From positions 1 through 64,000 of the forward strand of contig SUWU01000009.1 of assembly GCA_015061295.1 (NCBI GenBank): DNA of 64,000 bases, in the 5' to 3' direction. The DNA is from Lentimicrobiaceae bacterium (lineage in GTDB: Bacteria > Bacteroidota > Bacteroidia > Bacteroidales > F082). Positions 208 through 63,678 of the stretch are shown here, piece by piece. Position 1 is the first letter of the stretch. Each line of letters opens with the position of its first letter. A model generated the notes under the pieces. The model saw only the letters and a list, made by a program, of their open reading frames with translations. It was not told the DNA's origin and did not search any database. The position numbers were made by a program, and so were the translations under genes.

Positions 208-2004
208 TTACAAGTTGGCATCTGGCAATGCCGCGATCAGCCTCTTCGTATAATCGTTCTGCGGATTATTGAACAATTCGTCTGCCTCATTAATCTCCTG
301 AATCTTGCCGTTATACATCACCACGACTCTGTCGGACATAAATCTTACGACGCTTAAATCGTGAGAAATGAATATATATGTGAAATGAAAATCTTTCTTC
401 AACCTGTTAAGAAGATTTAACACTTGTGCTTGTACTGATACATCTAAAGCAGATACCGACTCATCGCATATTATCAGCTTTGGATTGACAGCGAGAGCAC
501 GTGCAATACAAATACGCTGTCTCTGACCTCCAGAGAACTCATGCGGATAACGCTGATAATGTGATGCTTCCAATCCCACCTCTTCCAACAAGTAACAAAC
601 ACGCTCTCTTCTTCTCTTCGCATCTTTCTCAATTTCATGAATCATCATCGGTTCAGCAATAGCTTCACCTATGCAAATTCGAGGATTTAAAGAAGAATAC
701 GGATCTTGAAATATTATCTGCGCCTGCCTACGATACTCTCTTACCTCTTTGTTATTAAACTGTGTAACATCACTACCTTCAAAAATCACATTGCCAGAAG
801 TAGGCTCGACGAGTCGTAAGATACTACGTCCTAAGGTTGTCTTACCGCAACCCGACTCACCTACAAGTCCGAGTGTCTCACCTGGATAAACATCAAAGCT
901 CACATCATCGACAGATTTTATATAGCTGTGAGTCCTGCCGAAGACACCTTTGCGGAGCGGATACCAAGTCTTAAGGTTCTGCACCTTAAGAATAGGTTCC
1001 TGAGAATACATAAACTCATGATGCTTCCTTCGTTCTTCATCGGTGATAAGCAACTCATTTTTTATCTGATTATTATCGTTCCATATCCCATCAAGAAACT
1101 CTTTAACGATAGGCAGACGTTCCAAACGATAATCAAGTGGAGGGCGACAAGCGATGAGTCCTTTCGTATACGGATGCTGAGGGTTATTAAGGATGTCATT
1201 CACTTTTCCTCTCTCCACTATCACGCCTTTATTCATCACTATGACATCATCAGCTATTTCAGCTATCACTCCTAGGTCGTGAGTGATGAATATCATTCCC
1301 ATACCGTTCTCACGCTGAAGATCCTTAAGAAGTTTCAGAATCTCCTTTTGGACAGTCACATCAAGAGCCGTCGTAGGCTCATCAGCGATGAGGACTTTTG
1401 GGTTAGAGACAAGAGCCATGGCTATCATCACTCTTTGCTTCTGACCGCCAGAGAGTTCATGAGGATATTTATCAAAAATAATCTCCGGATTAGGAAGCAT
1501 CACCTTACGGAAAAGCTCGAGAACCTTTTCTTTGGCTGTTGAAATTTGACGCTGACTTTGACTCTGACACTGACTTTGCGACTCTGCGACTTTATGTCTC
1601 TGCGTCTCTACTTGTAGACTCGTTGTCTCGTTGACTCGTTGACTTAAACTAACCGCTTCCATCACCTGAAACCCACATTTATAAACAGGATTTAACGATG
1701 TCATCGGCTCTTGAAATATCATCGCGATTTCCTTACCGCGTATCTCCGTCATATCATCATCGCTGAATTTAGATATGTCATTATCATCTAATAATATAGA
1801 GTCTGCTTTAATACGAGACTTCTTTTTATCAAGGAGTTGCATGATGGCAAGATTACTCACCGATTTACCCGAGCCCGACTCACCTACAACACCAAGAGTT
1901 CTGCCGCTATAAACTTCAAAATCAATACTATGAACCACTTCCTGCCATTTTTCGTCACGGCAGAAATCGATGCGTAGATTATTTATTTTCAGCAATGATT
2001 TCAT
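208..2004 (-). CDS. Fused oligopeptide ABC transporter ATP-binding protein (DppD-DppF type)
   Basis: Two complete ABC ATPase domains in one chain of 598 residues, the usual arrangement for Bacteroidetes oligopeptide/nickel-type importers. Domain 1 has Walker A GESGSGKS at residues 41-48, Q-loop Gln98, signature LSGGQKQ at 184-190 and Walker B ending ADEP near 210. Domain 2 repeats this order (GESGCGKT, then FSGGQRQ and ICDES) with the oligopeptide-type C-terminal extension after each domain. The start is placed at Met13 of the longest frame (position 2004): the upstream Met would overlap comF, and a TACCTTTG box (2010-2017) lies directly upstream, implying an almost leaderless message. Residues about 119-153, between the Q-loop and signature of domain 1, are Ser/Gln-rich and encoded by a tandem-repeat array (1547-1644); related ATPases lack this insert. 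No permease or binding-protein gene is adjacent. Confidence 0.9.
   Translation of the reverse strand: MKSLLKINNLRIDFCRDEKWQEVVHSIDFEVYSGRTLGVVGESGSGKSVSNLAIMQLLDKKKSRIKADSILLDDNDISKFSDDDMTEIRGKEIAMIFQEPMTSLNPVYKCGFQVMEAVSLSQRVNETTSLQVETQRHKVAESQSQCQSQSQRQISTAKEKVLELFRKVMLPNPEIIFDKYPHELSGGQKQRVMIAMALVSNPKVLIADEPTTALDVTVQKEILKLLKDLQRENGMGMIFITHDLGVIAEIADDVIVMNKGVIVERGKVNDILNNPQHPYTKGLIACRPPLDYRLERLPIVKEFLDGIWNDNNQIKNELLITDEERRKHHEFMYSQEPILKVQNLKTWYPLRKGVFGRTHSYIKSVDDVSFDVYPGETLGLVGESGCGKTTLGRSILRLVEPTSGNVIFEGSDVTQFNNKEVREYRRQAQIIFQDPYSSLNPRICIGEAIAEPMMIHEIEKDAKRRRERVCYLLEEVGLEASHYQRYPHEFSGGQRQRICIARALAVNPKLIICDESVSALDVSVQAQVLNLLNRLKKDFHFTYIFISHDLSVVRFMSDRVVVMYNGKIQEINEADELFNNPQNDYTKRLIAALPDANL
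1547..1644 (+). repeat. Composite hexamer/octamer array inside the ABC ATPase gene
   Basis: Read on the plus strand it has three parts: TGACNN hexamers (1547-1577), octamers like GCGACTCT (about 1578-1612) and octamers like CTCGTTGA (about 1613-1644). The same three-part order occurs at 58213-58321 in wbpD. It is translated as a Ser/Gln-rich segment without breaking the reading frame. Confidence 0.85.
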
Positions 2005-2026
2005 GAAGGCAAAGGTAATAAAAATA

Positions 2027-2722
2027 TTAACCTGCTGCACACGCTGCTGTTGCTACGCTAATCTTTACGTCAGGTATCCTCATTAGTGTCCTCCCTGCTG
2101 CCATAAGGGTTGCTCCTGTAGTCAAGACATCATCAATCAGTAAGATATGTTTATTCCTAAACTTCTCATCATCAGCGACATCGAAAATATCTTTCACATT
2201 ATGCCATCTTTCTTCTCTCGATTTCTTCGTCTGAGTAGAGGTAAACACCTTTCTATAAAGACAATCTTTGACTATGGGGATTTTCATCTTCTCCTCAACA
2301 CCTTGCGCTATAACGAAACTCTGGTTATAACCTCGCATATATTCCTTCTTTGGATGAAGCGGTATAGGCACAAGATAATCTATCCCTTGAAACAAATACA
2401 CATCTCTAATAGTATCGCCCAATTGCTGCCCGAGAAAGAATCCTGCGTCTTTATTACCCTGATATTTCAGCTGATGTAACAGATGCTGCACCTTACCTGT
2501 CTTGCTGAAGAAAAACTCTGCCGTCACCGCTTGAAAATCTACTTGTCCCCAAAACATCTGCGCCAATGGATTATCGGGTTCTCTCTCATACATGGTCTTA
2601 GGTAAAAGATAACGACAAGTCATGCAGATAGTCTCTTCTCCATTCATCAAAAGGTTGCCACAAGCAGGACACACCTGAGGATAAAACAAATTAATAATGT
2701 GATGTAAAAAATTCGGTTTCAT
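2027..2722 (-). CDS. comF: ComF family phosphoribosyltransferase-like protein
   Basis: A 231-residue protein with an N-terminal zinc ribbon (Cys18, Cys21, Cys33, Cys36) and a C-terminal PRTase fold carrying the PRPP-binding motif IDDVLTTGAT at 196-205. ComF proteins are linked to DNA uptake in naturally transformable bacteria, and most Bacteroidetes carry one of unknown substrate. The start is Met at 2722 rather than the longest-frame Met at 2755, because a TATCTTTG box (2741-2748) sits 19 bp upstream of it. The gene is followed after 22 bp by the ABC ATPase gene on the same strand. Confidence 0.88.
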   Translation of the reverse strand: MKPNFLHHIINLFYPQVCPACGNLLMNGEETICMTCRYLLPKTMYEREPDNPLAQMFWGQVDFQAVTAEFFFSKTGKVQHLLHQLKYQGNKDAGFFLGQQLGDTIRDVYLFQGIDYLVPIPLHPKKEYMRGYNQSFVIAQGVEEKMKIPIVKDCLYRKVFTSTQTKKSREERWHNVKDIFDVADDEKFRNKHILLIDDVLTTGATLMAAGRTLMRIPDVKISVATAACAAG

Positions 2723-2740
2723 GGTTTCTAATCTTTGGTG

Positions 2741-2748
2741 CAAAGATA
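2741..2748 (-). promoter_or_regulatory. TAnnTTTG -7 box upstream of comF
   Basis: TATCTTTG on the minus strand, 19 bp upstream of the chosen comF start. It matches the Bacteroidetes primary sigma -7 consensus. Confidence 0.6.
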
Positions 2749-2883
2749 TATACATTTTTTCATAAATAGTTAGAAATTAACATATTTTAACCTTTGAACA
2801 CTATTATCATGTATTGATAACTTAAAAAATCATAAAAACGTCAAATCAAGCTTATATCATGTCATATCAACATAAAAAATCGT

Positions 2884-2891
2884 TATCTTTG
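2884..2891 (+). promoter_or_regulatory. TAnnTTTG -7 box upstream of dpp11
   Basis: TATCTTTG, 30 bp upstream of the ATG at 2922. It supports the short start over the ORF-longest start at 2859, which would place the promoter inside the gene. Confidence 0.65.
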
Positions 2892-2921
2892 CGAAAACGA
2901 AATCAAATAACATATATCAAT

Positions 2922-63122: not shown

Positions 63123-63127
63123 TTAAG

Positions 63128-63170
63128 AACCTGAGAATCTGAGAATAATCTTAGGTTCTCAGGTTTTTTT
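63128..63170 (+). terminator. Intrinsic terminator of the protease gene
   Basis: A 10-bp stem (63128-63137 with 63156-63165) and T-run to 63170. The stem sequence AACCTGAGAA resembles the pgk downstream stem (AACCTGAAAA). Confidence 0.92.
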
Positions 63171-63177
63171 ATAAAAA

Positions 63178-63213
63178 ACTCGTTGTCTTGTTGTCATGTT
63201 GACTCGTTGACTT
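63178..63213 (+). repeat. Octamer array CTCGTTGA-like, upstream of the DUF6769-like gene
   Basis: About four 8-bp units (CTCGTTGT, CTTGTTGT, CATGTTGA, CTCGTTGA) ending in CTT, the same end as the octamer part of the other composites. No hexamer part is attached. Confidence 0.8.
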
Positions 63214-63220
63214 TTTTTCT

Positions 63221-63228
63221 TATCTTTG
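63221..63228 (+). promoter_or_regulatory. TAnnTTTG -7 box upstream of the DUF6769-like gene
   Basis: TATCTTTG, 25 bp upstream of the ATG at 63253 and directly next to the octamer array. Confidence 0.6.
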
Positions 63229-63252
63229 CACTCGCATTCTATTATGGTTTTG

Positions 63253-63678
63253 ATGTTAAAGAAAATTAGTAAAATATCCCTTTCTTTAGCCTGCATGATA
63301 ATACTCCTTCATGCAATAATTCCGCATCATCATCACCCTGATAAACCTATCTGCATTCATCAGCTCAATCATAACGACTGCGATAATCACGGAAACTGCT
63401 GCGACTTCAGCGATGAAGAAAATCATCATCACGACTTCGATAAAAACAAATGCATCATCGACGATCTATTCGCTCCGAAAAAGGAAACGCTGACGCAGAC
63501 TTTGACACTGACACAGACTCTGACTTTTGACTTGTTTGTCATTACATTAATCTTCGATATCATTCATGATGACGAAGGCAAAATCTTCCGACGAAATAAT
63601 CTCACCTTTAATTATAAAAACCCTCTCGCAATAAGTAATGTCGGATTGCGAGCCCCACCGATGATTTATAATGCATAA
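63253..63678 (+). CDS. DUF6769-like His-rich small membrane or secreted protein
   Basis: 141 residues from Met at 63253: one N-terminal hydrophobic segment, then LLHAIIPHHHHPDKP and a His/Cys/Asp-rich stretch (HNDCDNHGNCCDF, NHHHDF) likely to bind metal. Residues about 80-93 (TLTQTLTLTQTLTF) are encoded by a TGACNN array and are not expected in the family. In Bacteroidetes such genes often precede metal-efflux or TonB-receptor genes; the lipoprotein starting at 63950 may be one. Met7 of the longer frame is an alternative start. Confidence 0.7.
   Translation: MLKKISKISLSLACMIILLHAIIPHHHHPDKPICIHQLNHNDCDNHGNCCDFSDEENHHHDFDKNKCIIDDLFAPKKETLTQTLTLTQTLTFDLFVITLIFDIIHDDEGKIFRRNNLTFNYKNPLAISNVGLRAPPMIYNA
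63491..63532 (+). repeat. TGACNN hexamer array inside the DUF6769-like gene
   Basis: Seven hexamer units (TGACGC, AGACTT, TGACAC and similar) in plus orientation, translated as a Thr/Leu/Gln run. Confidence 0.85.

Follow-up and report, generated by a model that had tools for sequence, protein, structure and literature searches.

How short tandem arrays built of the same few units came to be scattered along a bacterial contig, and how several of them came to lie in frame inside conserved and unrelated proteins, is the question raised by the 64,000-nucleotide stretch analysed here in its full length (the window), which is contig C26 of G000, a 2.1-Mb draft genome of a Lentimicrobiaceae bacterium in 63 contigs and 94 percent complete. 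The initial annotation had described eight arrays of hexamers and octamers, two of which (1547 and 58213) share a three-part order of hexamers, a middle part and octamers, and all eight were recovered, at most a few bases away from where they had been placed. Five of them (1547, 10363, 58213, 59614 and 63491) lie, as proposed, in open coding frames of unrelated conserved proteins, and translation of the five host genes revealed no internal stop codon. The reading favoured here, with moderate confidence, is that they belong to a changing population of arrays with units of 6, 7 or 8 bp, located mainly in intergenic regions and at gene ends, which would be fed in part by a palindrome of ~54 bp and would undergo turnover at its sites. 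The arrays are dispersed and reside in reading frames, their unit families differ between species at fixed sites, and a palindrome specific to a group of close relatives has a right end that adjoins arrays.

The dispersal was verified by pattern counts. The hexamer pattern (TGACNN)3TGAC gave 362 matches in the G000 genome and a single one in the reversed control, which bears out the proposed dispersed family and answers the objection that the genome might hold no further copies; an octamer pattern gave 20 matches against 0. In a sample of 434,739 bp, composed of the window and further stretches of G000, runs of at least four TGAC at a spacing of 6 numbered 25 (0 in reversed sequence) and runs of the octamer CTYGTTG numbered 15 (0 reversed); the test for octamers of the middle part, with 3 against 3 in reversed sequence, is uninformative by itself. 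Additionally, Tandem Repeats Finder (TRF) reported 188 arrays in this sample and 22 in a block-shuffled control, the best periods being 7 (65 arrays), 8 (39), 12 (28) and 6 (21). Among the 99 genomes of the genus in the collection, the hexamer pattern was present in 16, the next highest count after that of G000 being 40, and the octamer pattern was found in G000 alone among 395 genomes of the phylum. A species-wise count of units, noisy for period 6, served as a hint only. Arrays of 7 or 8 bp numbered 12 in the window, 28 in 67,803 bp of loci from its close relatives, 29 in 148,183 bp of outgroup loci, 7 in 98,476 bp of other outgroup loci and 0 in shuffled sequence. At 18.8 per 100 kb, their density in the window is not above that in the former outgroup loci (19.6), and it is the hexamers, not the 7/8-bp arrays, that distinguish G000. 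Spread by viruses was considered and rejected, two patterns having no match in the viral contigs scanned. A literature search, which tests absence from print only weakly, returned no description of this repeat family. The arrays of the window and their host genes are the following (coordinates, strand, feature).

208..2040, - strand: host gene of a DppD/OppD-type two-domain peptide ATP-binding cassette (ABC) ATPase, with an in-frame insert of 33 residues (residues 133-165)
1546..1577, + strand: hexamer part (TGACNN)n of the first composite
1578..1611, + strand: middle part of the first composite, ending CGTCTCTAC and partly expanded to octamers; putative right end of the palindrome
1612..1644, + strand: octamer part (TYGTTGAC)n of the first composite
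7708..7745, + strand: heptamer array TGTTAAT at the 3' end of a gene
9832..10668, - strand: host gene of a carbon-nitrogen hydrolase (amidase), with an insert of 20 residues (residues 83-102)
10361..10384, + strand: hexamer part, in frame in the carbon-nitrogen hydrolase
10385..10422, + strand: octamer part (ACTYGGTG)n, in frame in the carbon-nitrogen hydrolase
27863..28924, - strand: host gene of a mannose-1-phosphate guanylyltransferase-like protein, with an insert at residues 163-175
28401..28435, + strand: heptamer array (GCTGTTG)5, in frame in the guanylyltransferase-like gene; a sixth in-frame array, absent from the initial annotation
57677..58324, - strand: host gene of a hexapeptide-repeat acyltransferase, whose N-terminus (38 residues) is encoded by the array
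58226..58254, + strand: hexamer part of the second composite; these hexamers are missing from the G051 orthologue
58255..58288, + strand: middle part of the second composite, ending TCTCTAC (58282-58288)
58289..58324, + strand: octamer part (TYGTTGAC)n of the second composite, common to G051
59276..60007, + strand: host gene tsaB (TsaD family in Pfam, with solved TsaB/YeaZ relatives), with an insert of 16 residues (residues 112-127)
59613..59652, + strand: hexamer array, in frame in TsaB
60000..60063, + strand: hexamer array starting at the TsaB stop codon
60454..60578, + strand: hexamer array 3' of a 23S rRNA-intervening sequence protein gene, outside convincing genes
63176..63216, + strand: octamer array, intergenic, outside convincing genes
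63488..63532, + strand: hexamer array, in frame (16 residues) in a DUF6769 protein (63226-63678)

In the sample, 108 arrays of period 6-8 or of hexamer type were located with respect to genes: 33 lie within genes, 2 are N-terminal, 33 run across gene edges and 40 are intergenic. Because only 33 internal and 2 N-terminal arrays were found at a coding density of 0.93, as estimated by our own generous gene caller (a dicodon scheme that overcalls small frames), arrays are depleted from genes, but they still occur there. When genic, they occupy open frames only and, in the cases examined, loops or termini. In the ABC ATPase, the solved DppD structure 8wd9 could be aligned to the sequence before the insert (residues 15-130) and after it (167-309), and in DppD 6 residues separate the two blocks. 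Ten further array-bearing host proteins were scanned, 7 of which have Pfam families and 3 do not, and the families include a PIF1-like helicase, a HemN-type radical S-adenosylmethionine enzyme, an acyltransferase, two alpha-amylase family enzymes and a PP-loop ATPase.

The comparison of orthologous sites drew on 11 genomes that group together by amidase and TsaB similarity (G000, G051, G052, G053, G058, G064, G065, G071, G072, G076 and G078), with 73-82 percent identity to G000 in these proteins and at most 68 percent in the rest of the genus. By this similarity they are close relatives, and they are not strictly shown to form a single clade because G052 is found beside the outgroup in the tree (support 0.776). 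In the TsaB loop before CPMIDARR, G000 has hexamers, G058, G071 and G078 share CTACAAGA octamers, G051 has AGTCAATG octamers, G065 has AAAGTCR heptamers, and other repeats occupy the loop in G053, G064 and G076. When loop periodicity was tested against shuffles, with uncorrected p values, the TsaB loop was periodic in all nine close genomes, G000 included (p <=0.021), and in none of five outgroups, whose loops hold non-periodic inserts; G052 and G072 gave no TsaB match, and G082, whose locus had been translated in the wrong frame, was excluded from this count. The amidase loop was periodic in 7 of the 11 close genomes (p <=0.03; the others are G052, G053, G064 and G078) and in 0 of 7 outgroups, among which G044 reached p 0.053. 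Since the amidase insert is absent in G052 and in the outgroups G044, G086, G088 and G092, the insertion is probably derived. Given that orthologous sites carry other unit families, that outgroup loops are non-periodic and that the amidase insert is missing in G052 and outgroups, these loops are best read as insertions with turnover at permissive sites and not as ancestral protein; distant relatives either have no insert there or show a different one at these residues, and the ancestral origin that the initial annotation had named as its own refutation did not materialise. In the TsaB loops of three of the outgroups, G049, G073 and G139 (L182, L184 and L185), an in-frame repeat-like insert of a different repeat class, GTCATTTCGA..GAGAAATC, was seen at the same residues.

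Outside these two loops, 12 of 109 sampled arrays could be placed in G051 through both flanks. Two of the intervals are near-identical, and at the remaining 10 arrays (two in one interval) both species have repeats, which by eye are wholly different in 6 cases and partly shared in 4. A gene on C11 encodes an SQQVNKST-type octamer peptide in G051 and a QTQ-type hexamer peptide in G000, and the guanylyltransferase-like gene has an octamer composite in G051 where G000 has the heptamer array 28401-28435. As judged by eye, other repeats occupy the interval of the 7708 array in G051, G053, G064 (together with a palindrome), G065 and, though weakly, G078; G052 and G071 have little there. Also by eye, a site in a gene that we take to be NnrE-like holds octamers and a full palindrome in G052 and G051, and octamers, a half palindrome and hexamers in G000. 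Because related species often hold different unit families at one site, such sites appear to have been filled and refilled over species time.

By eye, four further places (C30:52980, C30:53387, C12:772 and C22:17324) show the order of parts shared by 1547 and 58213, and slippage alone does not explain this order, as had been argued. The initial annotation attributed this order to the copying of a composite element; an order beyond the reach of slippage alone stands, but the unit is better seen as a palindrome whose right end, CGTCTCTAC, adjoins arrays than as a fixed composite. This imperfect palindrome of ~54 bp, with the consensus AGACGYRTCAAT..ATTGAYRCGTCTCTAC in G000 and G051, has as its end the CGTCTCTAC that precedes the octamers on the right of the composite. 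A model built from 21 copies, with at most 58 candidates scored per genome, gave 54-58 matches in each of exactly 11 of the 99 genus genomes, which are the 11 close relatives, whereas 85 of the other 88 had none and three had a single marginal match (E 4e-4 to 8e-4); in the order, 2 of 295 genomes matched, namely G000 and one with a marginal match. In a set of 50 flank rows, into which a few elements entered twice, 28 had a periodic right flank and 21 a periodic left flank. Among the 11 palindrome copies of the G000 sample, a periodic flank was found on the right in 7, on the left in 4 and on either side in 9, compared with 18 percent of non-coding windows and 23 percent of the 28 bp after stop codons, and the right end is enriched for arrays relative to the non-coding background. 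Additionally, 12 of 19 motif matches in this sample were judged by eye to be array junctions, from which the motif had been picked in the first place, and TAGAGACG lies within 60 bp of 11 of the 108 arrays, which exceeds both the random expectation of 1.45 and the 11 of 338 gene 3' ends. In the arms, 6 of 11 pairs are invariant and 90.4% of cells pair; since covariation, as a sign of compensatory change, was not above that of shuffles, 56 of 500 of which reach it, action of the palindrome as a folded strand is not claimed.

Related palindromes were also encountered. L131:3671-4000 (G051 C25) comprises three tandem units of ~125 bp, each a longer related palindrome with GAGACG ends and an octamer array. 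L293 (G072), opposite the palindrome L123:3664-3718 (G051 C49), has a palindrome with the ends GAGACG..CGTCTCTAC and a different interior, and because only the interior differs, several palindrome families may share these ends.

A palindrome with the end CGTCTCTAC is the likely source of the order shared by the composites, and 1547 and 58213 would retain its right end only. According to the favoured reading, the palindrome would insert together with, or into, an array, its hairpin part would then be lost or truncated, as presumably at 1547 and 58213, and the array would remain. Arrays would grow by slippage, and dispersed arrays would be copied between sites and overwrite one another via common short words such as GACT, selection purging the out-of-frame or otherwise harmful versions. 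Several observations weigh against this reading. The window holds no full palindrome (best match E 0.022), and most arrays have no palindrome adjacent, as the 11 of 108 near TAGAGACG indicate. The half-palindrome GAGACGYRYC, near 8 of 108 arrays (random 1.3) versus 17 of 338 gene 3' ends, is hardly in excess; against a background of 18 percent, the left-flank excess (4 of 11) is unclear; and the non-coding and gene-end controls together weaken the link between palindrome and arrays. No mobilising enzyme was identified, Y1_Tnp being the only transposase family searched. Neither direct alignment, whose one hit proved not to be an element, nor the pairing of flanks, where the intervals of 15 pairings were too diverged to define junctions, produced a clean empty site with target duplication. 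In G053 and G064 the amidase loop is long yet non-periodic. Finally, because the outgroup loci with their 29 seven- and eight-bp arrays lack abundant palindromes, and octamers like those of G000 are present as well in G045 and G084, which do not belong to the 11, arrays are wider and older than the palindrome and do not need it.

Slippage that starts independently at each site from a chance seed, with no copying, is an unlikely account of the whole, although it has points in its favour: the degenerate units are compatible with slippage followed by point changes, the array at the TsaB 3' end begins on GGACTCTGA, a possible seed, and heptamer arrays are found in outgroup loci as well. It is opposed by the recurrence of a few unit families at many unrelated sites, with an abundance that differs between genomes, and by the recurrence of junctions between CGTCTCTAC and arrays. 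Loss of mutS as a cause was rejected, as MutS_I, the one repair gene family covered, is present in G000 as an open frame of 874 codons and in 94 of the 99 genus genomes.

In long and short interspersed nuclear elements (LINE/SINE), a conserved unit is followed by a variable short tandem tail, as in the 3' microsatellite tails of which the CR1 octamer tails are an example. The palindrome and a tandem tail could in the same manner be one mobile unit, the tail being made anew with a unit that differs between species and stand-alone arrays being truncated copies; the bacterial element differs from LINE/SINE in being a hairpin of ~54 bp. No reverse transcriptase was linked to arrays or palindrome, and none was sought. 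This possibility is as doubtful as slippage alone, and if it were true, species-specific repeat families would sweep hundreds of permissive sites, rewriting protein loops genome-wide.

It is improbable that hexamers, middle part and octamers together make up a single mobile element that is copied whole. The order is alike by eye at six places in G000, but the orthologue of 58213 in G051 has octamers and middle part and no hexamers, octamers adjoin full palindromes without hexamers, and hexamer arrays are common on their own. Because G051 keeps octamers and middle part alone at this site, the parts of the composite can apparently come and go separately.

Still less probable is that the inserts are selected features, such as regulatory arrays or adaptive loop diversification. 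Arrays do cluster at stop codons, 35 of the 64 edge or intergenic ones beginning between -20 and +12 bp from a stop codon as opposed to at most 11 of 59 at an equal distance upstream of a start codon, and a translational role was proposed by MacGregor for TAACTGA arrays in Beggiatoaceae (PMC4679880); however, unit families are often not retained at a site across species, and many hosts are ordinary conserved enzymes. At G000 C4:98.5-107 kb (L106 and L107), three adjacent genes with alike ends have the same kind of heptamer array at each stop codon.

The least probable account, that the palindrome is a repetitive extragenic palindromic (REP) element moved by a REP-associated tyrosine (RAYT, Y1) transposase with the arrays as by-products, agrees with a palindrome that is short, imperfect and in high copy, with Y1 transposases in 6 of the 11 genomes and with GAGACG motifs ~300 and ~800 bp from the Y1 gene at L238 of G076, but it was rejected because the draft genomes of G000, G051, G052, G064 and G072 gave no Y1 match, no GAGACG motif stood directly beside the gene in the 7 of 8 group Y1 loci inspected (nearest ~300 bp, L238), several of these loci carry other palindromic repeats beside the gene by eye, and no Y1 transposase was seen flanked by the same palindrome.

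Among known systems, the short tandemly repeated repetitive sequences (STRR) of filamentous cyanobacteria (PMC2670836) and the TAACTGA arrays of Beggiatoaceae, cyanobacteria and five Bacteroidetes (PMC4679880) are dispersed arrays of 7-bp units, mostly intergenic, patchy among lineages and at times located in reading frames or capable of forming hairpins. Many dispersed tandem 7-bp arrays were likewise found here (65 of the 188 TRF arrays). In contrast, and as compared by description, the G000 group mixes 6-, 7- and 8-bp families in frame in conserved proteins, the family changes at the same site between species, and some arrays adjoin a defined palindrome. The Rickettsia palindromic elements (RPE), to which the initial annotation had likened the arrays, are palindromic repeat DNA in frame in unrelated genes (PMC10969869), and the residence of arrays in frame in conserved genes upholds that likeness. 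On the other hand, a palindrome of ~150 bp encoding a conserved peptide was not found: the inserts examined are mostly tandem arrays with differing peptides, what the proteins retain is an array whose unit and peptide vary, and the palindrome measures ~54 bp. By analogy, the arrays would work like STRR in their spread and like RPE in their in-frame residence, and they are assigned to neither. The palindrome has traits of prokaryotic miniature inverted-repeat transposable elements (MITE) and REPs, being short, high-copy, lineage-restricted and devoid of genes, with an inverted-repeat core, terminal inverted repeats and conserved ends; it differs in that variable tandem arrays adjoin its ends, and no target duplication (in intervals too diverged to define junctions) or related transposase (only Y1_Tnp was searched) was found.

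Loops of conserved enzymes thus appear to receive unrelated repeat DNA again and again without closure of the reading frame. Because related species provide, at the same residues, natural versions that are empty or hold something else, the spread and turnover of short tandem arrays in bacteria become directly testable, and the same sites provide a ready map of insertion-tolerant positions in conserved proteins. For annotation, caution is advisable, since in these genomes a loop of this kind can consist of repeat DNA instead of a conserved domain.

Some further features of the window were noted. The 23S rRNA-intervening sequence protein gene (PF05635, 60099-60452) is flanked by two hexamer arrays. 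The segment 31767-32699 of the window and G000 C30:55331-60000 have 97.6 and 99 percent identity to G051, other aligned blocks having ~68-91 percent, which suggests recent exchange or strong conservation. At 63740-63890, a further dispersed-looking repeat (CCGTCGGGCTTTCCGCTGTATC ... CGCTCCAATCCCTAACGC) was found, with a relative in L238 of G076.

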